A stretch of 7,131 bases of DNA from Kiritimatiellia bacterium (GTDB lineage: Bacteria; Verrucomicrobiota; Kiritimatiellia; RFP12; UBA1067). Position numbers and translations under genes: made by a program. The notes under the pieces are model-generated. The model saw only the letters and a list, made by a program, of their open reading frames with translations. It was not told the origin of the DNA and made no database searches. The stretch lies in contig JAQWAM010000059.1 of NCBI GenBank assembly GCA_028707675.1, positions 1 through 7,131 of the forward strand, written 5' to 3'. Shown here piece by piece: positions 271-7,131 of the stretch. The number at the start of each line of letters is the position of its first letter. Within the stretch, counting starts at the first letter, position 1.

Positions 271-1302
271 TCAGGCGTTGCCGGCTCCGGCCGCTTCAAG
301 CGCGCCTATCTTATCGGCGATCTCGGCCGAAACATTCCCTGAAGCGGCAGCCGTGCCTGCTATGATCGCATGATAAATAGCGCGGTATGTTGAAGAACCG
401 TGCGTGATGATCACCGTTCCGGGCACGCCCAACAGCGGCGCCCCGCCGTAAATCTCCGGATCCATGCGGTGCTTGAGTGTTTCCAGCGCCCCCTTCAGCA
501 GCAGCGCCCCAAACATCCGCACGGGATGCCTGAAAAATTCCCTTTTCATCCAGTATCCAACCGCATGAGCCACACGCTCGGTGGTCTTCAAAACCACATT
601 GCCCACAAACCCGTCGCATACCACCACATCGGTCTTTCCGAGAAAAAGGTCATGCCCCTCCACATTGCCGCGAAATTTCACGCCGGTCTTCTGGATCAAC
701 GAAAATGCCTTCTTGGTCATCTCGTTGCCTTTGCAGTCCTCGGTGCCGATGCTCAACAACCCCACCACCGGCTCGGTACGCTTAAGCGCGTAACGGGAAT
801 ATATGCTGCCCATGACCGCGAACTGGGCCAGCCACGCCCCGTCGCAGTCCGTGTTGGCCCCCGCGTCGAGCAGCAACAGCGGACGCTTTGGCTGTCGCGT
901 CGGCATAACCGTCGCGATGGCCGGCCGCAACACCCCCGGGACCCTGCCGAGATTCAAGACCGCTGCCGCGGTCACGGCCCCCGAGTTGCCGGCTGAAACC
1001 ATGGCGTCCGCCTGCTTTCTTTTGAGCAGGTCCATGCAGATGTTTATCGAGCAGAGCTTTTTCTTGCGCACTGCCGTCACCGGCGACTCGTCCATGCCGA
1101 TCGATTCCGCCGCGTGCACGATCTCAAGCCTGCTGCCGACAGCCTTCGGCCACCGGGCCAGCTCGTCACGCACCACACTTTCATCACCCACCAGAAGCAA
1201 ACGGTCAATCTCTTTAAGCCGGATGGAAGCTTCAACCGCGCCCCGCACTATTTCTTGCGGCGCGTGATCTCCCCCCATCATGTCGAGAGCGATTCGCATC
1301 AT
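271..1302 (-). CDS. plsX: Phosphate acyltransferase PlsX
   Basis: The 343-residue protein is full length for PlsX. It opens with IALDMMGGDHAP, the family's N-terminal signature. It continues with VSAGNSGAVTAAA (about residues 102-114), DAGANTDC (about 146-153), a GLLSIGTEDCKGN segment, and VVVCDGFVGNVVLKT, all characteristic of the Rossmann-like PlsX fold. PlsX is a peripheral membrane enzyme that turns acyl-ACP into acyl-phosphate, the donor that PlsY uses to start phospholipid synthesis. Two adjacent ATG codons (1302 and 1299) could each start translation; the second gives the usual MRIALD start. The ribosome site is weak. The gene lies 80 bp after rpmF, behind a strong hairpin, and is followed by fabD, matching the common rpmF-plsX-fab arrangement. 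Confidence 0.97.
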   Translation of the reverse strand: MMRIALDMMGGDHAPQEIVRGAVEASIRLKEIDRLLLVGDESVVRDELARWPKAVGSRLEIVHAAESIGMDESPVTAVRKKKLCSINICMDLLKRKQADAMVSAGNSGAVTAAAVLNLGRVPGVLRPAIATVMPTRQPKRPLLLLDAGANTDCDGAWLAQFAVMGSIYSRYALKRTEPVVGLLSIGTEDCKGNEMTKKAFSLIQKTGVKFRGNVEGHDLFLGKTDVVVCDGFVGNVVLKTTERVAHAVGYWMKREFFRHPVRMFGALLLKGALETLKHRMDPEIYGGAPLLGVPGTVIITHGSSTYRAIYHAIIAGTAAASGNVSAEIADKIGALEAAGAGNA

Positions 1303-1323
1303 AAATCCCGTATGCGCATCTCA

Positions 1324-1360
1324 CGCGAAAGGTTCCCGCCAACAGCGGGAACCTTTCGCG
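1324..1360 (-). promoter_or_regulatory. Perfect 16-bp-arm hairpin between rpmF and plsX
   Basis: The left arm CGCGAAAGGTTCCCGC (1324-1339) and the right arm at 1345-1360 are exact reverse complements, separated by a five-base loop. No T-tract follows on either strand, so it does not look like a standard intrinsic terminator. In the rpmF-plsX transcript it would form a very stable stem 23 bases after the rpmF stop. Possible roles are protecting the 3' end of rpmF mRNA, partial termination, or an RNase processing point that sets different levels of L32 and PlsX. The structure is directly visible; the role is inference. Confidence 0.75.
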
Positions 1361-1382
1361 CACACACGGCTACCGCAACCTG

Positions 1383-1562
1383 TCACTCGGACACCGTCAG
1401 AACCTTGCGCCCGTTGTACATGCCGCAAGCGGCACAGACGCGGTGCGTCTGCTGCGAAGCTCCGCAGCTCGGGCAAGCCTGAACTTGAGCCACCGCGGCC
1501 TTGATATGTCCCTTGCGCTGATTCTTGCGCATTTTCGACTTCTTGTGTTTGGGTACAGCCAT
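1383..1562 (-). CDS. rpmF: 50S ribosomal protein L32
   Basis: This 59-residue protein begins MAVPKHKKSKMRKNQRKGH, the classic L32 N-terminus. It continues with a zinc ribbon of four cysteines: Cys30 and Cys33 (CPSC), then Cys43 and Cys46 (CAAC). It ends GMYNGRKVLTVSE. L32 is a late-assembling protein of the large ribosomal subunit; the four cysteines mark the zinc-binding (C+) form. The ATG is preceded by GGAGG with a nine-base spacer. It sits 70 bp after the DUF177 gene and upstream of plsX, the usual order in many bacteria. Its length and signature make the call nearly certain. Confidence 0.98.
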   Translation of the reverse strand: MAVPKHKKSKMRKNQRKGHIKAAVAQVQACPSCGASQQTHRVCAACGMYNGRKVLTVSE

Positions 1563-1632
1563 TTTCTCTATCCTCCATCGGTCTCGCCGCCGCGGGCCTG
1601 CAGCAGTCTTTCCTGCCGACAGTCACCTCTCC

Positions 1633-2121
1633 TCAAAAAACGTCAGGGTTAAGCGCATCCAACGCCGACCATTTTCCGTCTTTGACCTTCTGTCCGCATT
1701 CGCATGCGCCCTTGTTCAGGTTCACGCCGCAGCCCATGCACAGGCCGCGGCACTCCTCGTCACAAACCGGATATCCGGGAAGGGCAAGTATGATAGCCTC
1801 CCGGACATCAGCGGTCAAGTCCACGAACTCGGTTTGGGCGTTAATTTCCGTCGCGCAAAAAAAATCATCGTCCTCGGCCAGCGTCTCGAAAACATCAGCG
1901 CACCGCGAGCATACGCACCTTAGATTCTGCCGGACAACCCCGCGCGCCAGAAGCTGGTCGCCGACCGCCTCCGCCATTATATCGTAAATCATTCCGCCGA
2001 CCGGAATGACAAACTCGCTCTCTCCCAGCTCAAGCAGATCGGGCGCGGTCTCGCCCAGATACCGCTCCCCGCCCTTTTCCAGACGGGCGACATCAACGAT
2101 CAAACGCCCCGGTGTTTGCAA
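1633..2121 (-). CDS. YceD/DUF177 family protein
   Basis: This 162-residue protein has the DUF177 layout: a beta-rich N-terminal half (LIVDVARLEKGGERYLGE), a Cys-x-Cys-x-x-Cys cluster (LRCVCSRC, about 68-75), an acidic middle, and a C-terminal cysteine-rich segment with CDEECRGLCMGCG and CECG. DUF177 genes almost always sit just before rpmF, as here. Known members are linked to large-subunit rRNA accumulation and ribosome assembly, but the biochemical role is not settled. The proposed start is TTG at 2121, preceded by GGAGG five bases upstream and overlapping the end of coaD by 29 bp. A TTG at codon 7 is the alternative and would give a start closer to that of typical homologues. The overlap suggests translational coupling to coaD. 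Confidence 0.9.
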   Translation of the reverse strand: MQTPGRLIVDVARLEKGGERYLGETAPDLLELGESEFVIPVGGMIYDIMAEAVGDQLLARGVVRQNLRCVCSRCADVFETLAEDDDFFCATEINAQTEFVDLTADVREAIILALPGYPVCDEECRGLCMGCGVNLNKGACECGQKVKDGKWSALDALNPDVF

Positions 2122-2644
2122 CTCCGCCTCCCGCCTTTAAATCGCGCGCCGCATGACCGCGCCTGTAATCCTCGATTTGCCTCTGGACCGCTTTCGGCAC
2201 AAAAGCGCTGGTGTCGCCGCCGTAACGCGATATCTCCCGCACGGTGCTGGCCGTCACGTAACTGTAGTTCTCGTTCGGCATCATGAACAATGTCTCGACC
2301 GCCGACTCCAACTTGCGGTTGGTCAAAGCCATCTGAAACTCGTACTCGAAGTCCGAATATACCCGCAGCCCGCGCACAATCACGCCAACCTTCTTGCTGC
2401 GGCAGTAATCCACCAGCAGACAATCCAGGCTGTCTACCTCAATGTTCTGCATGCCAGCCTCTGCCACGCTCTCTTTAATCATGAGCATGCGGGTCTTCAG
2501 GTCAAACATGCCGGTCGCCTTGTGGGAAACCCCCGCGACCACCACAATCACCCGGTCGAACAACGCCGCGCTGCGGCGCAACAGATCAAAATGACCCAAT
2601 GTCAATGGGTCGAACGTGCCGGGATATACCGCTGTCCTGTGCAT
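2093..2644 (-). CDS. coaD: Phosphopantetheine adenylyltransferase CoaD
   Basis: The protein has the nucleotidyltransferase signature YPGTFDPLTLGH at residues 7-18, including Thr10 and the T-x-G-H motif ending at His18, which bind the ATP phosphates. Downstream are GLRVYSDFEYEFQMALTNRKL and the ATP-binding TASTVREISRYGG, both characteristic of bacterial PPAT. CoaD adenylates 4'-phosphopantetheine to dephospho-CoA, the penultimate step of coenzyme A synthesis, in the cytoplasm. At 183 residues it is about 20 longer than the usual ~160; the extra is a C-terminal tail after the conserved QRQIEDY region. The ATG has AAGGAG five bases upstream. It lies 37 bp after rsmD, a very common pairing. Confidence 0.97.
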   Translation of the reverse strand: MHRTAVYPGTFDPLTLGHFDLLRRSAALFDRVIVVVAGVSHKATGMFDLKTRMLMIKESVAEAGMQNIEVDSLDCLLVDYCRSKKVGVIVRGLRVYSDFEYEFQMALTNRKLESAVETLFMMPNENYSYVTASTVREISRYGGDTSAFVPKAVQRQIEDYRRGHAARDLKAGGGVANTGAFDR

Positions 2645-2681
2645 AATTCTCCTTGCCTATAACTTGAACGTTGGACGTTCG

Positions 2682-3272
2682 TTATTCGGCGTTCACCTGT
2701 TCCCGCTCTGCGGGCGGCGGGCCAACCAACCTGTACAACGCCAGACGCGTGTGCCCGTATGTGCGGTCACGCAGCAGCGTCCAGCCCTCCGCCTCTTCGG
2801 TCGCGCTGCCGTCAGGCATCTCGGCCACGAAGAAACCGCCCGCGCGCAAAACCTTTCCGTCCGCCAACAGCGCCATCACCGCCGCAAAATCCGGCCACCG
2901 GCCCGCAAGATAAGGCGGATCGGCGAAAACGATATCAGCCTGTCGCCCCGCGCCGGCAAACTTGAGCCACCGCAACACGTCGCAGCAGGCGGCCTCGCCC
3001 GCGCCCGCAGCCAAAGCGGCCGCGTTCTCTTTGATGACAGCGATGTTGCCCCGGTCTTTCTCCACCCACACCACACTGCGCGCCCCGCGGCTCAATGCCT
3101 CCAGCCCTACAACGCCCGAACCCGCGAAAAGGTCAATGAAGACAGATTCTCCGATCACGTTCGCCAGCATCGAGAACAAAGCCTCTCGCACCCGGTCCTG
3201 CGTGGGCCGCACCTTCTGACCCGCGGGGACCTTGATCCTCCGGCCACACATTTCTCCGCCTGATATGCGCAT
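2682..3272 (-). CDS. rsmD: 16S rRNA (guanine(966)-N2)-methyltransferase RsmD
   Basis: This 196-residue protein matches RsmD across its length. It has the MRISGG start, VRPTQDRVREALF (about 21-33), the SAM-binding DLFAGSG at 47-53 followed by GLEALSRGA, VEKD near residue 70, and the catalytic DPPY at 118-121. RsmD methylates G966 of 16S rRNA on the small subunit, using S-adenosylmethionine. I chose the ATG at 3272 because it gives the canonical start, although there is no clear Shine-Dalgarno; a second ATG at codon 8 has GGCGGAG nearby but would remove conserved residues. It is the first gene of the housekeeping block and has its own candidate promoter. Everything upstream of it is accessory DNA. 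Confidence 0.95.
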   Translation of the reverse strand: MRISGGEMCGRRIKVPAGQKVRPTQDRVREALFSMLANVIGESVFIDLFAGSGVVGLEALSRGARSVVWVEKDRGNIAVIKENAAALAAGAGEAACCDVLRWLKFAGAGRQADIVFADPPYLAGRWPDFAAVMALLADGKVLRAGGFFVAEMPDGSATEEAEGWTLLRDRTYGHTRLALYRLVGPPPAEREQVNAE

Positions 3273-3280
3273 TCGTTATT

Positions 3281-3310
3281 ATGATAGCGGAAAACCTCGC
3301 GCCTAAGCAA
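3281..3310 (-). promoter_or_regulatory. Candidate promoter for the rsmD operon
   Basis: On the minus strand TTGCTT (3310-3305) and TATCAT (3286-3281) are spaced by 18 bases. The -10 matches the sigma-70 consensus at five of six positions; the -35 is weak. Transcription would begin at or within a few bases of the rsmD ATG, giving a leaderless or nearly leaderless message, which fits the lack of a Shine-Dalgarno. Confidence 0.4.
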
Positions 3311-3317
3311 CAGCCTT

Positions 3318-3373
3318 CCAAACGCTAACAAAGTTTGGGGCACCATTCAACTGCGTTGAAGTCGCACCCCAAC
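3318..3373. repeat. Two overlapping, mutually exclusive hairpins beside the last attC
   Basis: CCAAAC (3318-3323) can pair with GTTTGG (3333-3338). Alternatively GTTTGGGG (3333-3340) can pair with CCCCAAC (3367-3373), enclosing a perfect TTCAAC-tgc-GTTGAA stem at 3346-3360. Both folds use 3333-3338, so only one can form at a time. The second fold includes the terminal box of the neighbouring attC site. This stretch lies between the array end and the rsmD promoter and contains no gene. Its role is unknown. Confidence 0.45.
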
Positions 3374-3422
3374 GTCGGCGGTGAAACGGCGGTATCCCGT
3401 CGCCTACACCGCCTTGTTCGGC
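3367..3422 (-). repeat. attC-like integron recombination site, array end next to rsmD
   Basis: Read on the minus strand the 56-bp site starts with box GCCGAAC (3422-3416), continues AAGGCGGTG, and ends CACCGCC-GAC-GTTGGGG, with the GTT box at 3373-3367. The stem GGCGGTG/CACCGCC is exact (3377-3383 with 3407-3413). The integron consensus is RYYYAAC ... GTTRRRY; each box here has one mismatch. The site begins five bases after the yafQ stop, the standard position of attC at the 3' end of a cassette. It shares 40 of 50 aligned bases with the site at 5988-6043, so the two are homologous. It is the last site before the housekeeping genes. Confidence 0.72.
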
Positions 3423-3427
3423 CGATT

Positions 3428-3700
3428 TCATTTTCCAAACAAATCTGCGTGTGTTCCCGTTCGTTCAAGCAAAAGGGTATCGATCCCCGGCGTATAAACA
3501 AGAATCCAGTCCGGCTCGACATGGCAGTCTCTCGATGGGGCCCATGCACCAAGGAGCGGATGATCGCAGTGTCGGGGGGAGAGCGGGCTGCCGTGTGCCA
3601 ACAGGCGGACGAGGGCCTGTAGTTTGGACAAATCCTTGCCGCGCTTTCGCATTCGTTTCACATCACGGTGAAACTGCTTGGTTTGCGATACCCGTTTCAC
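3428..3700 (-). CDS. yafQ: YafQ-family mRNA interferase toxin
   Basis: The protein is 90 residues from the chosen GTG start at 3700, close to the 92 residues of E. coli YafQ. All five residues known to matter for the E. coli enzyme appear at a constant offset of three: His47, His60, Asp64, Trp65 and His84. They lie in DHPLLGAW, CHVEPDW and RTGTHADLF. YafQ is a RelE-fold ribosome-dependent endoribonuclease that cuts mRNA during translation and is held inactive by DinJ. The GTG overlaps the antitoxin stop by four bases (GTGA), a typical coupled arrangement; a TTG at 3709 is the alternative start. The stop is five bases before an attC-like site, so this TA pair occupies the 3' end of a cassette. 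It looks intact. Confidence 0.9.
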   Translation of the reverse strand: MKRVSQTKQFHRDVKRMRKRGKDLSKLQALVRLLAHGSPLSPRHCDHPLLGAWAPSRDCHVEPDWILVYTPGIDTLLLERTGTHADLFGK

Positions 3701-3954
3701 TTCTCCCAACTTTCGAAAAGGGCGTCAAGGGTGTCGAATGCTTCCACGTCTTCACCTCGGCGACTCTTGGCAAGAGTTGCCGCTGTTTTTTCGTTAGGAA
3801 TCGAAACGACGAACGGTAGTCCGCGTCGGAGAGTGATTTGGCGGTAGAAGATGCGGATCGCATCCGTCGGGCTGATTCCGAGACTCTGAAGCACTTCTTC
3901 CGCCTGAATCTTCACCTGTGGTTCGATTCGCGCGTGTATGACTGCTGTTTTCAT
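3697..3954 (-). CDS. dinJ: RelB/DinJ-family antitoxin
   Basis: This 85-residue protein starts MKTAVIHARIEPQVKIQAE, a ribbon-helix-helix type N-terminus. It continues VLQSLGISPTDAIRIFYRQI and LRRGLPFVVSIPNEKT, the hallmark order of RelB/DinJ antitoxins: a DNA-binding dimer domain followed by a toxin-wrapping C-terminal part. I chose the ATG at 3954. An ATG at 3963 is possible, and a longer reading from 3984 would include promoter sequence. No Shine-Dalgarno is visible, and the candidate promoter ends only a few bases upstream, so translation may be leaderless. It neutralises the overlapping YafQ and probably represses its own promoter, where a 13-bp palindrome overlaps the -10. Confidence 0.88.
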   Translation of the reverse strand: MKTAVIHARIEPQVKIQAEEVLQSLGISPTDAIRIFYRQITLRRGLPFVVSIPNEKTAATLAKSRRGEDVEAFDTLDALFESWEK

Positions 3955-3961
3955 AGGAAGC

Positions 3962-3991
3962 ATTGTGACACAATTGCAACACATGAGTCAA
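3962..3991 (-). promoter_or_regulatory. dinJ-yafQ promoter with palindromic operator
   Basis: On the minus strand TTGACT (3991-3986) and CACAAT (3967-3962) are spaced by 18 bases. A perfect 13-bp palindrome, ATTGTG-A-CACAAT, covers 3962-3974 and so overlaps the -10. This fits autorepression by a ribbon-helix-helix antitoxin. The -35 lies over the end of the reading frame of the upstream hicA relic. Confidence 0.5.
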
Positions 3992-4240
3992 GTCGTGTAT
4001 TGGTGTTTCCGGCCTCGGGTGCTGTTTTTTCCGTTGAAGTTTAAGCGGCCTTGTGGTGCGAGCGGTAGCGTGCGTGGATTGTTTAACCGGTCGATGAACG
4101 GGTATGGTGAGTTTGAGTGTTTCCGATGGTGTGTGCTTTTGGAGGCGAATGTGGCTTCCCTTCTGCCGGACAACAACCCACCCGTCGCGCTGCAGAGCGC
4201 GTATGATGCGGTCGTACGACAGACTTGGAACTTTGCTCAT
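3988..4240 (-). pseudogene. hicA: HicA-type mRNA interferase, frameshifted near the C-terminus
   Basis: Residues 1-56 are a normal HicA: SLSYDRIIRALQRDGWVVVRQKGSH, with the catalytic-type His30 in GSH, then a strand and a PVHRPVK segment. After that the frame changes. A tandem CACG repeat on the minus strand (4069-4076) looks like a four-base duplication. Removing one copy restores STLPLAPQGRLN, which resembles the family's usual last helix (typically ...L-x-x-ILKQARL...). As it stands, the reading frame continues into the dinJ region as unrelated sequence to 3794. The end I give, 3988, is the stop of the repaired frame. HicA is a double-stranded-RNA-binding-fold ribonuclease that cleaves mRNA. 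The start overlaps the hicB stop (ATGA). Residual activity is possible because the catalytic part is intact. Confidence 0.65.
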
Positions 4241-4440
4241 ACGGCGACTTCAAGTTGTTCGGCCTTCTCCATTCCCATCGTGTCGTCCTCGACGGGTTCA
4301 AGATATAGAATAATAGCCTCGCGGATGTTTGCGAGGGTCTCGTCTCGTGTGTTGCCCTCGCTGATACAGCCCGGCAACGACGGCACAATGGCGGTAAAGC
4401 CGCCTTCATCACTAGGTTCAAGAAGTACCTTCAGGTTCAT
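4237..4440 (-). CDS. hicB: HicB-family antitoxin, short form
   Basis: This 67-residue protein has the HicB partial RNase H-like fold signature: MNLKVLLEPSDEGGFTAIV, then PSLPGCISEGNTRDETLANIREAI and a YLEP tail. It lacks a C-terminal DNA-binding domain, as is usual for this short subfamily. HicB binds and blocks HicA. The start has an excellent ribosome site, GGAGGTG four bases before ATG, and a good promoter lies just upstream. Its stop overlaps the hicA ATG by four bases. The antitoxin frame is intact although the partner toxin is frameshifted. Confidence 0.9.
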   Translation of the reverse strand: MNLKVLLEPSDEGGFTAIVPSLPGCISEGNTRDETLANIREAIILYLEPVEDDTMGMEKAEQLEVAV

Positions 4441-4458
4441 ATTTCACCTCCGGAAAAA

Positions 4459-4493
4459 ATAATACACGGTTTGTCCGTTCAGTTCAATCTGAA
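4459..4493 (-). promoter_or_regulatory. hicBA promoter with flanking palindrome
   Basis: On the minus strand TTGAAC (4487-4482) and TATTAT (4464-4459) are separated by exactly 17 bases; the -10 matches five of six consensus positions. A TTCAG-N6-CTGAA palindrome at 4478-4493 overlaps the -35 and could be an operator. The ribosome site of hicB follows at once. This is the best-formed promoter in the accessory block. Confidence 0.55.
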
Positions 4494-4497
4494 TGAA

Positions 4498-4537
4498 GCC
4501 AACCCGAAGGGTGAGTCGCCGGCCCCGGAGGGGCGGG
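4498..4537. repeat. 40-bp repeat, copy 1 (REP-like)
   Basis: This 40-bp sequence is identical to 5862-5901. It contains two small hairpins, ACCC/GGGT and CCCC/GGGG, and is very GC-rich. It lies between the stop of the brnA gene and the hicB promoter, where an attC site would be expected. It resembles repetitive extragenic palindrome elements, though no associated transposase is visible. Confidence 0.7.
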
Positions 4538-4547
4538 CTCTGCGTGT

Positions 4548-4760
4548 TCATGATGCCCATGTGAGGGATAACTTCTTTCCGGAATGGGCGCACTCACTCA
4601 GGTAGAGATTGATCAAGTTCTGGTAGGGCACTCCGGTCTCCTGGGCCAGAGCCTTGAAATAGGCGATGACATCCGTGCCCAAGCGCATAGTCACCCGCTT
4701 TCGCAAGTGCTTCGCGTAAGGGTTGCGAACCGAGTCGGTTAAATCGTATTCTTTTCTCAC
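4548..4760 (-). CDS. brnA: BrnA-family antitoxin, partner toxin decayed
   Basis: The 70-residue product reads RKEYDLTDSVRNPYAK, then KRVTMRLGTDVIAYFKALAQETGVPYQNLINLYL, then a KKLSLTW tail. This is the BrnA (PF14384-type) layout with a C-terminal ribbon-helix-helix domain. I chose GTG at 4760 because GGGAG lies six bases upstream, the protein then starts where the family does, and the GTG overlaps the stop of the brnT remnant (GTGA). An in-frame ATG at 4805 would add 15 residues read from former brnT sequence. BrnA normally binds the BrnT ribonuclease and represses the operon. Here the toxin is broken, so this antitoxin is an orphan. It may still bind other BrnT proteins or DNA. Confidence 0.82.
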   Translation of the reverse strand: MRKEYDLTDSVRNPYAKHLRKRVTMRLGTDVIAYFKALAQETGVPYQNLINLYLSECAHSGKKLSLTWAS

Positions 4761-4888
4761 AAATAGCTCCCGTATTATTTGCGTTCGTTTGGCGTTGCTT
4801 TTCATGCCGAGATGATGCGGCTCACCTCGTCATTCTCACGATAAGCATGGCACACGAGCAATAGCCGCAGCTTGACACTGAGTGTTTC
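4757..4888 (-). pseudogene. brnT: BrnT toxin remnant (C-terminal half, two in-frame stops)
   Basis: Immediately upstream of brnA, the frame ending in the TGA at 4759-4757 reads LRLLLVCHAYRENDEVSRIISA-stop-KATPNERK-stop-YGSYL. The first part is the conserved C-terminal strand pattern of BrnT (DUF497), which normally continues IISARKAT. The first stop is a TGA at 4804-4802 where an arginine CGA is expected, and the second is a TAA. Only about 44 codons remain of roughly 90; the N-terminal half is absent, and an attC-like site begins about 40 bp further upstream. The toxin can no longer be made as a functional protein. Confidence 0.7.
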
Positions 4889-4930
4889 TTATGGCGTTAT
4901 ACCGCAAAGATATTTTTTCCTCTTTATCCC

Positions 4931-4997
4931 GCAGAACGTTGAAATCACCTGTCAAATAAGCGCGCTTTTTTGATCAGGTGCATTTGCCTTGTTCTGA
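4931..4997 (-). repeat. attC-like integron recombination site after hicA
   Basis: On the minus strand the 67-bp site begins TCAGAAC (4997-4991) and ends GTTCTGC (4937-4931). These boxes are largely self-complementary (CAGAAC/GTTCTG). CACCTG (4946-4951) pairs with CAGGTG (4975-4980) and CAAA with TTTG, with unpaired bases between them. The centre is a perfect AAGCGCGCTT palindrome (4958-4967). It begins one base after the hicA stop codon. The boxes deviate from GTTRRRY at two positions, so the call rests on position, architecture and the match described for the cassette start at 5466-5473. Confidence 0.65.
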
Positions 4998-4998
4998 T

Positions 4999-5187
4999 TT
5001 ATTCTATTTCAGTTATGGAAAGACACTTACATATTTTTCGGGCTAGACGGTTCGGAACTTCTGTGTGACGAGGAACTGCCTCAATCCACCCTGTTTGAGG
5101 ATTACACCATAAGGAATGAGAACCGCCTTCTCTTTTCAAAAAACAGCCATTACGGCGCAGGTGTTTCAAAAGTGTGTTGCGTTTCAT
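4999..5187 (-). CDS. hicA: HicA-family mRNA interferase toxin
   Basis: The 62-residue protein reads MKRNTLLKHLRRNGC, then LKREGGSHSLW with the catalytic His24, then EAVPRHTEVPNRLARKICKCL. This is a complete HicA of the short type, with a double-stranded-RNA-binding-like fold. HicA cleaves mRNA independently of ribosomes in known systems and is blocked by HicB. The ATG overlaps the hicB stop by four bases. The TAA stop lies one base before an attC-like site. Nothing suggests damage; it differs clearly from the damaged HicA at 3988-4240, so the two are not recent duplicates. Confidence 0.92.
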   Translation of the reverse strand: MKRNTLLKHLRRNGCFLKREGGSHSLWCNPQTGWIEAVPRHTEVPNRLARKICKCLSITEIE

Positions 5188-5399
5188 CCTATTGCAACCA
5201 TTAATCGTTCCGCATCTTTTGGTAAACCTTTGGCTGCATCTTCACGCCTGTCAACTAGGATCAAGTCAATCGCCTGAGACAAGCTTCCGAGGGCTTCATC
5301 TTTTGTTTTTCCCTGACCGTTTGCACCAGGGATTTCCGGGGAATAGGCGAAAAACCACCCTTCATCTTTTTCAACTATGGCTGTGAATTCGTTATGCAT
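5184..5399 (-). CDS. hicB: HicB-family antitoxin
   Basis: From ATG at 5399 the product is 71 residues: MHNEFTAIVEKDEGWFFAYS, PEIPGANGQGKTKDEALGSL, then an AIDLIL helix. This is the HicB RNase H-like fold with the E-x-P-G-x-x-x-x-G core. The ATG has GGAG eight bases upstream. The same frame stays open upstream to 5594, but that part is nuclease relic and attC sequence, so the shorter start is right. It neutralises the overlapping HicA. A possible promoter (TTGCTC at 5451-5446, GATAAT at 5430-5425, 15-bp spacing) lies in the first part of the cassette; it is weak. Confidence 0.9.
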   Translation of the reverse strand: MHNEFTAIVEKDEGWFFAYSPEIPGANGQGKTKDEALGSLSQAIDLILVDRREDAAKGLPKDAERLMVAIG

Positions 5400-5466
5400 A
5401 ATATATCTCCATTTGTTGTATAAGATTATCATGTAGGCAGAGTCGGAGCAATTCTTCATTTTTTCA

Positions 5467-5490
5467 TCAGAACGCCGGCGGTGAGGCGGC
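5467..5490 (-). repeat. Remnant attC arm at the start of the hicBA cassette
   Basis: On the minus strand this ends CACCGCCGGC-GTTCTGA, with the GTT box at 5473-5467. The core GCGGTGAGGCG (plus strand, 5478-5488) is identical to the same part of the attC at 5988-6043. The other arm is missing; the sequence where it should be is coding sequence of the nuclease relic. It therefore looks like half an attC joined to a gene by deletion. Its terminal GTTCTGAT is the exact complement of the box starting the next attC (ATCAGAAC, 4998-4991 on the minus strand). Confidence 0.55.
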
Positions 5491-5851
5491 GCGATAGCGA
5501 CGAAAAAGGCGTTAGTGAAGCCAGCCGTCTTCAACTGTTCCAGAAAAACAATGCCTTTGCAGAAGCTGTACATTTTGTTCGGGGTATTGCCCATTCCTTG
5601 GATATTTGAATTCGATCACGTAATGAAGGGCGGTCTTATCTCGCGCCAACACCGCTAGATCGATCTCTTTTTTCAAGAAGTGGTTTGTCTCATCGAAGAA
5701 ATACGACACATTCCTTTCAAATTTAACCTTTGAGTCTCGTTGCGCATTTCATAATGAAGCCCCCCATTTCGTGTTGCAGGCTGAACTCGTTGTAAATCTC
5801 AATCTGGTCTTGTGCAACCATTCGCGCATAGTGGCTAAGTAATGTTTTCAT
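5474..5851 (-). pseudogene. PD-(D/E)XK-type nuclease-like gene, two frameshifts and lost 3' end
   Basis: Three frames must be joined to read one protein. The first runs from ATG 5851 (MKTLLSHYARMVAQDQ ... EFSLQHEMG ... RLKG) and stops at 5725-5723. The second continues KVKFERNVSYFFDETNHFLKKEIDLAV and YVIEFKYPRNGQYPEQ. The third resumes after CAAAA near 5575 as MYSFCKGIVFLEQLKTAGFTNAFFVAI. The E-I-D and E-F-K spacing fits a PD-(D/E)XK nuclease core, and the FLEQL-x-x-AGF tail resembles a hypothetical family with that fold. The precise function is unknown. The 3' end is replaced by a half attC. The start has a GGAAAG ribosome site, and the 40-bp repeat lies just upstream. Confidence 0.6.
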
Positions 5852-5861
5852 ATTTCTTTCC

Positions 5862-5994
5862 GCCAACCCGAAGGGTGAGTCGCCGGCCCCGGAGGGGCGG
5901 GTCGTAGTCGACCCGCTGGTTCGTCCGCGCAAGCGGCGAACTAGACGGTGGCTCACCCTTCGGGATGTCGGTGACGCGAAGCGTCGGCGACATC
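5862..5994. repeat. Nested palindromic element containing 40-bp repeat copy 2
   Basis: The left end (5862-5901) is identical to the repeat at 4498-4537. CCCGAAGGGTGAG (5867-5879) pairs with CTCACCCTTCGGG (5952-5964). Between them are GCGGGTCG/CGACCCGC (5897-5916, four-base loop) and GTTCG-t-CCGC/GCGG-CGAAC (5919-5941, GCAA loop). A further hairpin follows: GATGTCG-gt-GACGC/GCGTC-gg-CGACATC (5964-5994). The whole forms a branched structure about 130 bp long. It holds no gene. It sits between an attC and the nuclease relic, and its right end covers the attC crossover box. It may be a non-autonomous mobile element. Confidence 0.65.
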
Positions 5995-6043
5995 GTCAGC
6001 GGTGAGGCGACGGTATCCCGACGCCTCCACCGTTTTGTTGGCC
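5988..6043 (-). repeat. attC-like site with a lost crossover box
   Basis: On the minus strand the 56-bp site begins GGCCAAC (6043-6037). It has a ten-pair stem, CGGTG-AGGCG with CGCCT-c-CACCG, containing one unpaired base. It ends CGCTGAC-GATGTCG (5994-5988) where a GTTRRRY box is expected. Its length and 40 of 50 aligned bases match the site at 3367-3422. The PIN toxin reading frame runs through it and stops inside, which is common for cassette genes. The altered end box is shared with a palindrome of the neighbouring element, so the site is probably no longer recombinogenic. Confidence 0.68.
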
Positions 6044-6436
6044 CTTTTCAATTTCCCAGAATTGCCGGGGAGTCACAATTCGCAAGCGTCCGACCTGCGC
6101 CAGCCCGACGATCTCCTTGTCGCCCGTGACAAGGAGATCCGCGTTGCCATTGATGGCGGAGGACACGATGGCTATGTCGGCAGGGTCGCGCAGTCGCAGA
6201 TCAGCGAGCGGCAACACACTCGCCCTTACCGCGTCTTGCTTTAAAAGGCAGACGAGGTCTTCTACCAATTCCAACGGGGCGTGGAATTTGTCACCGAGGA
6301 TGCGCTTTATCTCTTCCAAGAGATGATCGGAAACAACCAGTTGATGAAACTCGATTACTGTTCGGAACAGATCGGCACAAAGCCCGCGTGCAGCCGTCGC
6401 GCTTGCGATGACGTTCGTATCGAGAGACACTCTCAT
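5996..6436 (-). CDS. PIN-domain toxin (VapC-like ribonuclease)
   Basis: The 146-residue protein begins MRVSLDTNVIASA with the first PIN aspartate at position 6. It has a glutamate pair at 41-42, then RDPADIAIVSSA (Asp84, Asp87) and ADLLVTGDKEIV (Asp106). These acidic residues form the metal-binding site of PIN ribonucleases. The layout fits the 'putative toxin-antitoxin PIN family' (COG1569 type) rather than classic short VapC. Residues up to about 132 (WEIEKG) belong to the domain; the last 14 or so are translated attC sequence. The ATG overlaps the antitoxin stop by four bases. It likely cuts RNA when released from its partner. Confidence 0.88.
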   Translation of the reverse strand: MRVSLDTNVIASATAARGLCADLFRTVIEFHQLVVSDHLLEEIKRILGDKFHAPLELVEDLVCLLKQDAVRASVLPLADLRLRDPADIAIVSSAINGNADLLVTGDKEIVGLAQVGRLRIVTPRQFWEIEKGQQNGGGVGIPSPHR

Positions 6437-6654
6437 GGCAGCTTCTCGAATACATCCTCATCCGTCAGGAAGCCTCGGGCTTCGGCAAAGGGCATCATTC
6501 GTCGACGTATTGTCTCAAACTGTGTCAGGCGGAGTTGTCGCCGCAATGCGTCTCGTGCGACCTCGCTGCGACTGTGTCCGAGTTGTCGTGAGGCCCTGCC
6601 GAGCAAACTGTCGAGTTCGCTGTCCAAGCGTATGCTGAGGGTTGCTGTCTTCAT
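6433..6654 (-). CDS. Ribbon-helix-helix antitoxin of the PIN pair
   Basis: The 73-residue product reads MKTATLSIRLDSELDSLLGR, then ASRQLGHSRSEVARDALRRQL: a beta strand and two helices of a CopG/RHH DNA-binding domain, with the usual turn at GHSRSE. The C-terminal part (MPFAEARGFLTDEDVFEKLP) would wrap the toxin. I chose ATG 6654, where homologues start; a longer frame from 6726 adds no family-like sequence. No Shine-Dalgarno is visible, but TGTATTAC just upstream (6672-6665) could be an extended -10, giving a very short leader. It should neutralise the overlapping PIN toxin and repress its own expression. Confidence 0.85.
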   Translation of the reverse strand: MKTATLSIRLDSELDSLLGRASRQLGHSRSEVARDALRRQLRLTQFETIRRRMMPFAEARGFLTDEDVFEKLP

Positions 6655-6655
6655 G

Positions 6656-6763
6656 TCACACAATGTAATACACCCGGATGCCATTGTTAACCGTCGTTTC
6701 CCCTGAGTCCGCTGATCTGTTGCCATGCCCCAGACCCTCCTGAGCCATTGCTACACCACACAT
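6656..6763 (-). other. Small open frame of 35 codons before the antitoxin, coding status uncertain
   Basis: From ATG 6763 an open frame reads MCGVAMAQEGLGHGNRSA ... GETTVNNGIRVYYIV and stops at 6658-6656, one base before the antitoxin ATG. It fills the space between the cassette start and the antitoxin. A second ATG lies at 6748. I do not recognise the product. It could be a leader peptide coupled to the antitoxin, the tail of an older cassette gene, or chance. Low confidence that it is translated. Confidence 0.2.
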
Positions 6764-6780
6764 TGCAGCAGGATTTCTTC

Positions 6781-6837
6781 GCGCAACGTCAGCGGCTACC
6801 GGCGCGTATTCTCGTTCGGTACGCCGCCTTGTTGGGT
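6781..6837 (-). repeat. attC-like integron recombination site after the BrnT-antitoxin pair
   Basis: On the minus strand the 57-bp site starts with ACCCAAC (6837-6831), a perfect RYYYAAC box, and ends GTTGCGC (6787-6781), one mismatch from GTTRRRY. The stem GCGGC-TACC (6792-6800) pairs with GGTA-c-GCCGC (6818-6827), nine pairs with one extrahelical base, a hallmark of attC. It starts one base after the antitoxin stop. This is the best-formed attC in the window. Confidence 0.78.
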
Positions 6838-6838
6838 G

Positions 6839-7072
6839 TCATTTTGAGTGTTGGACGGCATACGTATCCAATAGATTCCGAATCATCTTCTGGTACGCGG
6901 TTTTATGCAATCCAGCCTGTTCCTTGAAGAAGTCAAGGCTGGCTTTACTCAGTGAAATCGTGACCTTGACCTTCTCTTCTTTGAAGGCGAGTTGTTCCGG
7001 GGACGGGAGAAAGTCCTGCACCACCCGCACCTTGCCCATGGGTTCATCCGTGTATGTGATTTTGCTCTTCAT
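6839..7072 (-). CDS. CopG/BrnA-like antitoxin partnered with BrnT
   Basis: This 77-residue protein reads MKSKITYTDEPMGKVRVVQD, FLPSPEQLAFKEEKVKVTISL, then SKASLDFFKEQAGLHKTAYQKMIRNLLDTYA. The C-terminal strand and helices form a ribbon-helix-helix DNA-binding unit; the N-terminal part should contact the toxin. It overlaps the upstream BrnT frame by 29 bases, and a purine-rich stretch (AAAGGGAAG) precedes the ATG. It differs in length and sequence from the BrnA at 4548-4760, so it belongs to another subfamily. Its stop lies one base before an attC-like site, making this pair the most upstream cassette seen in the window. Confidence 0.83.
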   Translation of the reverse strand: MKSKITYTDEPMGKVRVVQDFLPSPEQLAFKEEKVKVTISLSKASLDFFKEQAGLHKTAYQKMIRNLLDTYAVQHSK

Positions 7073-7130
7073 AGAGTTTCTTCCCTTTCCGCCAGTATCC
7101 GGCGCCGAAGATCCGGATGACGTTGTTCCT
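7044..7130 (-). CDS. brnT: BrnT-family toxin, C-terminal 28 residues
   Basis: The frame entering from the right edge reads RNNVIRIFGAGYWRKGKKLYEEQ and ends NHIHG at a TGA at 7046-7044. IRIFGAGYWRKGK-x-YEEQ is a recognisable C-terminal pattern of a BrnT (DUF497) subfamily that pairs with antitoxins of the type next door. BrnT is a RelE-fold ribonuclease toxin. The N-terminal two thirds lie beyond the window, so intactness cannot be judged. It overlaps its antitoxin by 29 bases. Confidence 0.7.
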   Translation of the reverse strand, partial: RNNVIRIFGAGYWRKGKKLYEEQNHIHG

Positions 7131-7131
7131 G

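Follow-up and report, generated by a model that had tools for sequence, protein, structure and literature searches.

Toxin–antitoxin genes upstream of rsmD in a Kiritimatiellia bacterium: probable integron cassettes in a decaying, integrase-less attC cluster

The window—the whole 7,131-nt stretch analyzed here, contig JAQWAM010000059.1 of a Kiritimatiellia bacterium (GCA_028707675.1; a draft genome, completeness 81.6%)—carries a chromosomal operon and, upstream of its rsmD gene, a series of small genes and gene relics interspersed with short imperfect palindromes (Table 1). A first-pass annotation, made from the sequence alone, took the small genes to be toxin–antitoxin (TA) cassettes of an integron, bounded by attC sites and all in one orientation. 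The orientation is as described, for the four complete sites and the array genes are all on the minus strand. The TA families it named are recognized by Pfam (YafQ, RelB, HicB, HicA twice, PIN_3, RHH, and BrnA twice, the second below cut-off), but its count of five does not hold: there are four named families, with HicAB and BrnTA each present twice. YafQ/RelB and RHH/PIN_3 are predicted type II pairs, HicA2 probably pairs with its HicB-like neighbor, and BrnTA appears partial. No Pfam family matches that neighbor above cut-off, and none matches the piece beside the non-TA relic. The BrnTA remnant is ~90% identical to sequences in genomes G021, G025 and G005, each of which has ~175 extra nt at window position 4881/4882. 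Some seven modules can be counted, with four attC sites left. From 3422 to 4931 a single attC serves three modules, and the rule of one cassette, one attC therefore fails there.

Table 1. Features of the window (G and C numbers, genomes and contigs compared)
Feature	Position	Strand	Remarks
rsmD, coaD, yceD/DUF177, rpmF, plsX (chromosomal flank)	271..3272	-	Pfam
attC1	3367..3422	-	after yafQ; core G of G^TT at 3373; array end closest to rsmD; R2 34.9 bits
yafQ toxin, cassette 1	3428..3709	-	Pfam YafQ_toxin 101.7 bits
relB/dinJ antitoxin, cassette 1	3697..3984	-	Pfam RelB 50.9 bits
repeated element, ~60 nt, beside hicA1 cut	4018-4079		also in G025:C120 and G032:C3, 89-91%
hicA1, toxin relic, truncated near 4079	4079..4240	-	Pfam HicA positions 2-42 of 58
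hicB1 antitoxin	4237..4440	-	Pfam HicB_lk_antitox 43.2 bits
BrnTA cassette remnant	4548..4937	-	~175 nt of upstream toxin part gone; own attC absent
brnA1, intact	4548-4805	-	Pfam BrnA 30.7 bits
attC2	4931..4997	-	after hicA2; core G at 4937; R2 33.1 bits
hicA2 toxin	4999..5187	-	Pfam HicA_toxin 34.7 bits
hicB2-like antitoxin	5184..5399	-	name inferred from position; best Pfam DUF7387 15.9 bits, below cut-off
half attC, probable remnant, R'-L' side only	5467..5497	-	75% identity over 32 nt to attC1; weak
non-TA gene relic, broken	5512..5850	-	weak PD-(D/E)XK similarity: PDDEXK_9 16.0 bits, below cut-off; stops in translation
attC3	5988..6043	-	overlaps PIN gene end; core GTT mutated to GAT, core position 5994; R2 18.3 bits
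complete cassette, RHH antitoxin + PIN toxin, core to core	5994..6787	-	Pfam PIN_3, RHH_1
attC4	6781..6837	-	after brnA2; core G at 6787; R2 36.5 bits
brnA2 antitoxin	6839-7072	-	Pfam BrnA 20.0 bits, cut-off 26.1
upstream gene end, brnT expected, cut by contig end	within 6839..7131	-	

The covariance-model search that the first-pass annotation had proposed recovers its four complete sites to the base, with the same scores under default filters. The model, R2, is the family's own rather than IntegronFinder's, and was built from 28 attC sites of relatives, none of them from this genome. The next-best match in the window scores 9.0 bits. Sites 1, 2 and 4 begin 5, 1 and 1 nt past the stop codons of yafQ, hicA and brnA, respectively, and attC3 contains the stop, as had been noted. 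The boxes of attC sites follow the consensus RYYYAAC (R'') and GTTRRRY (R'), loosely in both cases. Of the AAC/GTT end boxes claimed for the window, AAC at R'' is present in all four, and GTT at R' in three, attC3 reading GAT instead. An unpaired stem base had been seen in at least two sites; a one-base bulge can in fact be drawn in all four, by a script that favors such bulges. It is a G, preceded by 8–9 nt after AAC, in attC2, attC3 and attC4, and a T in a wobble-rich alternative pairing in attC1. The imperfect hairpin with its extrahelical base is matched by the covariance model at 33–36 bits in three sites and at 18.3 bits in the fourth. Folding each site, another check proposed, gives single-strand DNA z-scores of -1.75 to -3.5 (both strands, four sites); this is weaker evidence, and would not have decided the identity of the sites had it been the sole proof. 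The folded plus strand, the bottom strand of attC, would be the one that recombines. As for the half site, its resemblance to attC1 stands, but R2 does not see it, and its fold z-scores (0.46 and -0.63) are no better than those of shuffled sequences.

How far can these scores be trusted? In 1,253,772 bases of control DNA R2 reached a maximum of 17.5 bits, and its stems covary: 113 cells are changed on both sides, whereas shuffles give 50 and the best slid version 72. Three of ten named genomes outside the family gave a match: Azoarcus taiwanensis has two sites (45.6 and 26.4 bits), and the unrelated whole genomes of Stenotrophomonas and Roseateles have one each (28.2 and 28.4 bits). Measured against the control maximum and against these single matches, the three window sites at 33–36 bits are more than chance. 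R2 is tuned to this Kiritimatiellae family; in two Xanthomonas genomes, which may or may not carry integrons, it found nothing at E<=0.1. By itself attC3 scores near noise, but an intact attC of 39.6 bits in G004:C24 is its homologue. An intact counterpart of attC1 stands on another contig of the same genome, C386 (91% identity over 55 nt); the yafQ gene beside attC1 has homologues in G003:C375 and G025:C120 with no attC at that place. Site attC2 is 93% identical over 61 nt to a site beside a HicA gene on G031:C198, a contig with a partial IntI gene. Other tools did less well. A first model, R1, with just six RNAalifold pairs, gave two window sites 16.0 and 11.8 bits and served only to gather sites for R2; a simple scan for pairing arms picked up one window site, or two after re-weighting; and Rfam returned nothing relevant, its two matches (E 0.91 and 1.3) both falling under the gathering threshold.

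The decisive evidence for reading the locus as integron-derived is unit-wise homology, a matter of sequence comparison. The PIN/RHH unit (5994–6791) is 95.4% identical over 798 nt to G004:C24, from another genus, and both ends of the match fall at attC cores, those of attC3 and attC4. Against G029:C154 the same unit is 82.6% identical over 690 nt, with its left end at the core and its right end at 6680; in G004 and G029 alike, gene and attC go together as one moving unit. Homology in the BrnTA leader extends as far as the attC2 core; beyond it come an attC3-type site in G005 and other sequence in G025, genomes of two other genera. The stretch with brnA2 and the cut upstream gene (6839–7131) is 89% identical over 259 nt to G029:C68, where brnA2 has a degenerate, R2-negative copy of attC4. 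Family-wide, 45 of 147 homologies that start within 60 nt of a core do so at -4 to 0, where 6.1 would be expected were starts uniform; counted by site, the figure is 13 of 45. Weighing against the cassette reading, most homologies with at least 60 nt in the downstream cassette (184 of 255) begin further than 8 nt past the core. The exchange of units among relatives with breakpoints at the R' core, the recombination-like presence and absence that the first-pass annotation had called for, is shown, as are the sites, their attC structure, their position at gene ends and their single strand. Recombination at the R' core is indicated by breakpoints that are comparative, not biochemical. We are highly confident that the TA genes of 3428–7131 lie in integron gene cassettes, that four attC sites mark these cassettes, with homology to other genera ending at the site cores, and that an integron integrase not found in the draft genome likely inserted them upstream of rsmD. 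Past movement by such an enzyme is likely because the match to the gene-plus-tag unit in another genus ends exactly at the attC sites.

Nor is the window the only such place in this genome. Scoring 150 of 1111 first-look candidates gave at least 19 candidate attC sites on seven contigs, five of which hold two to four sites each, always on one strand. Ten of the 19 start within 12 nt of an ORF stop and five more overlap an ORF end; the palindromes are therefore clustered, and mostly at gene ends, rather than scattered genome-wide, which was to have counted against cassettes. Eight of the 19 score below 28.4 bits, the level of single matches in two unrelated genomes, and some may be chance. A TA-type gene stands at 10 of the 19, compared with 6 of 40 genes in relatives' arrays (Fisher p 0.004), but with the window, which was chosen for its TA genes, set aside the count is 6 of 15 (p 0.07), and the enrichment is suggestive only. 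Genes were counted by their best Pfam family (E<=0.01), PIN included and an AbiEii-like minor match not, and two of the 19 sites have no ORF. The 40 genes, 29 of them from G031, were scanned at 58 sites on relatives' contigs with IntI or an IntI fragment; the count excludes ORF-less sites, repeats of the same ORF and short ORFs of doubtful standing. TA modules might be over-represented because their loss is costly. It is possible, if doubtful, that they are kept as phage defense instead of as array stabilizers: restriction endonuclease and TIR-domain genes also occur in relatives' arrays, but broken hicA and brnT copies persist here.

The first-pass annotation saw no integrase in the window, and none is found in the whole draft: among 469 contigs of this 81.6%-complete genome the best TIGR02249 match scores 18.1 bits against a cut-off of 265. 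At least two clustered attC sites and no integrase make a CALIN, a cluster of attC sites lacking an integrase; here there are four on the contig and no IntI in the genome, and the intI gene of a complete integron was not found in what is an incomplete assembly. The cluster is a CALIN, then, unless intI lies in the missing ~18%. We think it rather unlikely that the window forms the distal end of a normal, complete chromosomal integron, with integrase and attI beyond 7131 or on an unassembled contig. The contig does end within the array, inside the brnT–brnA cassette and on the side where IntI would be; the draft is incomplete; and six of 114 family genomes have a full IntI over cut-off, all six with attC as well. 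Against this, besides the lack of IntI, the genome's sites are spread over seven contigs, and the array on one of these, C212, is flanked by chromosomal genes at both ends and lacks IntI, a cleaner CALIN case than the window's, which the contig end cuts. (No empty insertion site for C212 could be drawn in G001, where its flanks are on two contigs.) Moreover, six of the 14 attC-bearing family genomes, all drafts, have no IntI match, bar matches of 76–82 bits to the C-terminal part in three, of a kind present in most family genomes. IntI could have made the insertions in trans, once resident, or from the unassembled ~18%, and the array would now behave as a CALIN in decay. We call it decaying because attC3 has lost its GTT, one site is half, and copies of hicA and brnT are broken; a decaying, TA-cassette-rich CALIN is the best label for the locus.

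The array joins a conserved chromosomal operon, as first described, and the gene-order comparison bears this out: the rsmD–plsX flank is 80% syntenic with G001:C212, whereas the array side is not syntenic, G001—the one same-genus genome compared—having a different gene upstream of rsmD. That the join is an assembly chimera of two contigs we regard as very unlikely. Homology with G001 stops at 3296 and array sequences recur within the genome (attC1, 91%, on C386), but the 70 nt at the join (3297–3366) match nothing outside their own contig at E<=1e-6 in 114 genomes, and there is therefore no repeat to explain a false join. Almost certainly, too, the palindromes are not repeats of a REP/MITE-like or terminator kind that follow genes by coincidence: the window has another repeat (4498–4537 = 5862–5901) and the fold z-scores are modest, but the sole R2 match over that repeat scores 6.0 bits (5861–5925), the four sites score 18–36 bits on one strand, with AAC/GTT boxes, at the ends of exchanged gene units, and core-to-core homology refutes the idea.

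Neither CALINs nor TA cassettes are new; what is new is a member in the Kiritimatiellae. The locus is like known CALINs in having several attC on one strand and no intI found, and unlike them in its family, its several small clusters, its TA genes at 10 of 19 sites and its partial decay. Two papers report CALINs to be commoner in bacteria than intI-bearing integrons, and to be expected in MAGs (PMC9668308; PMC8618304). With the Vibrio superintegron, a sedentary chromosomal integron, it shares TA modules as cassettes—a stabilizing role for which is named in the titles of cited works—but here the integrase is not found, the arrays are short, and there are several loci and several attC types. BrnT/BrnA, RelE/RelB and HicA/HicB are named among TA systems of metagenomic integrons in one account (PMC7370490); ours, by contrast, have a genomic location and can be followed, one unit at a time, in genomes of other genera. 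An uncultured family joins the known cases, one TA cassette being shared across its genera at 95% identity. The present genome, in which several attC clusters are rich in TA genes and no integrase is found, lends itself to the question of whether TA modules retain cassettes once the integrase is gone.

A more speculative idea, which we consider unlikely, is that attC can itself be swapped as a module. Ordinary TA genes would become cassettes, or take on another attC, through joining at R'' directly after the stop codon, in the direction of either gain or loss. Cassette formation is listed as an outstanding question in a 2021 review (PMC8618304). Gene pairs with and without attC bear on it, and if the idea is true they are before-and-after pairs for the birth of gene cassettes. 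The same genes do occur with and without attC, and they cease to match at R'' or a few bases ahead of it. The window's brnA2 shares CCCAAC with G059 (93.5%) and G021 (91.8%), the attC continuation being in the window only, and mazF on C212 differs in attC presence from its counterparts in G025 (98%) and G032 (95%). Four further gene pairs (76–84% identical), three of which survive a stricter length filter, carry unlike attC sites at the matching position, and there the break falls at R'' or as much as 9 nt ahead of it.

The toxin-antitoxin (TA) genes of the window most likely came to lie upstream of rsmD as gene-plus-attC units inserted by an integron integrase, IntI, which, going by established integron biology, would recognize the folded plus strand of attC. 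Homology between this array and its relatives arrives in units. When window 3297-7131 is compared by BLAST with 114 family genomes, matches occur in 14, its own among them. The PIN/RHH unit matches relatives G004 and G029 at 95.4% and 82.6%, respectively, and in the G004 alignment the right-hand switch comes after 'AACG' and the left-hand switch at the same C. Homology of the BrnTA leader extends to the core of attC2—the G of G^TT in the R' box—beyond which G005 continues with an attC3-type site and G025 with other sequence; copies of attC2 itself, 93-95% identical, occur in G031 (three) and G019. In G004 the PIN/RHH unit breaks at attC cores on both sides, and the BrnTA leader at that of attC2, in line with recombination-like exchange of units among relatives, the absence of which the first-pass annotation had listed among its refuting findings. 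Across 140 attC sites in the family loci fetched, 147 homologies begin within 60 nt of a core, and 45 of these start at -4 to 0 of it, where 6.1 would be expected if uniform; counted once per site (median), 13 of 45 sites behave so (binomial p 2e-8). Gene-side homologies that end near a site (n = 146) do so at the core (91), at R'', the AAC end box (22), inside the site (18) or after it (15). Judged from sequence, this is the pattern that integrase-mediated exchange at R' would predict. Since the arrays are related, the counts are non-independent; part of the loci were fetched for likeness to the window; and 184 of the 255 homologies that extend into the downstream cassette start deeper within it than the core.

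All four complete sites, proposed as attC by eye, are recovered by a covariance model, R2, built from relatives' sites (Table). With filters off, the next match in the window scores 9.0 bits; default filters leave the four scores unchanged and give 17.5 bits as the best match in 80 control loci (1.25 Mb; 79 of 80 named loci plus the rsmD locus of G001, a genome of the same genus). Candidates came from family-genome contigs with an integron integrase: the IntI profile TIGR02249 exceeds its cut-off in six of the 114 genomes, and G031 and G061 have partial IntI genes. A first model of 14 candidates served to gather further sites, and R2 comprises 28 of 55, picked by eye for uniform arm geometry, not all on integrase-bearing contigs, with the stem structure given by hand; all window-genome sequence was excluded, as was a G031 site 93% identical to attC2. 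Covariation supports the stems: they pair in 77.2% of cells versus 58.9% in shuffles, and both sides change in 113 cells versus 50, the structure being derived from the same sequences in each case. R2 is tuned to this family; of ten named genomes outside it, three yield matches at E<=0.1, including two with a single site each (28.2 and 28.4 bits).

Features of the window and of related loci
Feature	Location	Strand	Core	R2 bits	Remark
plsX, rpmF, yceD, coaD, rsmD	window, left of 3296	-			Pfam
TA genes	window, right of 3297	-			all on this strand
attC1	window 3367-3422	-	3373	34.9	
attC2	window 4931-4997	-	4937	33.1	
attC3	window 5988-6043	-	5994	18.3	GAT in place of GTT
attC4	window 6781-6837	-	6787	36.5	
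Half site	window 5467				R' half alone remains
PIN/RHH match, G004	window 5994-6791				
PIN/RHH match, G029	window 5994-6680				
Imperfect palindrome	window 3320-3373				GTTTGGGG...CCCCAAC
~60-nt element	window 4018-4079				also G025:C120, G032:C3
40-nt repeat	window 4498-4537, 5862-5901				GC-rich, identical copies
C212 TA modules	L226 2688-5544				RelB-YafQ, MazE-MazF (MazE below cut-off), VapB-PIN (VapBC), Phd-ParE, consecutive
Lone MazF cassette	L193 (C268) 4560-4993			24.1	
Gene pairs differing in attC	window 6831; L226:3492-4075; L194, L198, L199, L210, L158				

The window is the whole of contig C240 (7131 bases) in a draft genome of 2.28 Mb and 469 contigs. Its CoaD has a Kiritimatiellae MAG (L038) as best named relative, at 77%, the one match on which the group name is based, and the sequence left of 3296 is syntenic with G001 at 80% identity. 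In G001, rsmD is preceded upstream by a gene of 551 aa and by a second gene that looks helicase-like from its sequence. Under stricter filters G001 has no attC at E<=0.01; it has one 23.9-bit site, on a contig other than that of rsmD, and the cassette downstream is common to G005 from the core onward, at 93%. The palindrome abuts the outer edge of attC1, and 27 nt of it (3346-3372) match G012:C55 at 85%, perhaps by chance given an E of 0.32.

Parts of the array are decayed. hicA1 is truncated, the break adjoined by the ~60-nt repeated element; brnT1 lacks ~175 nt present in three relatives; and where brnA1 has its attC in G021 (31.9 bits), and a GTT-less copy of that site in G025, the window has the 40-nt repeat instead. 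This repeat is possibly REP-like; 37 nt of it have no match in the fetched loci beyond the window contig (of which L008 and L240 are pieces).

That no integrase is visible, as first remarked of the window, holds across all 469 contigs of this 81.6%-complete genome: the top TIGR02249 match scores 18.1 bits against a cut-off of 265. R2 finds 12 sites at E<=1 in the genome (150 scored of 1111 first-look candidates), and whole-contig searches of seven contigs bring the total to 19: C386 4, C459 3, C212 4, C422 1, C364 2, C268 1 and C240 4. Contigs with more than one site carry them on one common strand; the 19 scores span 18.3 to 43.4 bits, and 11 exceed 28.4. With stricter filters, attC occurs at E<=0.01 in 14 of the 114 family genomes; IntI is full in six of these, partial in two and not found in six. 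On C212, flanking genes on either side match chromosomes of relatives and TA modules lie between, so we regard it as a complete integrase-less cluster; no integrase was found there. Its first three modules are each followed by an R2-detected attC, and Phd-ParE by an extra attC-like site, 3' of parE, recognized by eye. Homologues of the MazF cassette on C268 occur in G059 and G032 at 88-92%, and homology stops inside attC.

Clusters of attC sites lacking integrase (CALINs) are already known in print, and the origins proposed for them are off-target insertion, intI loss and rearrangement (PMC8618304). Here the spread of attC sites among several contigs fits either off-target insertion or rearrangement. 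TA modules may slow loss of the array; enrichment of TA genes at the genome's own sites is suggestive at most. BrnTA, RelBE and HicAB cassettes (PMC7370490) and Verrucomicrobiota integrons (PMC8618304) are already published; among the titles and abstract openings searched, no publication devoted to integrons of Kiritimatiellae was found.

Composite sites are the subject of older work; in the part of the literature searched, no report was found of genes that carry attC in one copy and lack it in another, with the break at R''. In the loci examined here, some genes that are near-identical or related differ in this way: one has attC, its counterpart has none or a different attC, and the break falls at R'' or a few bases short of it.
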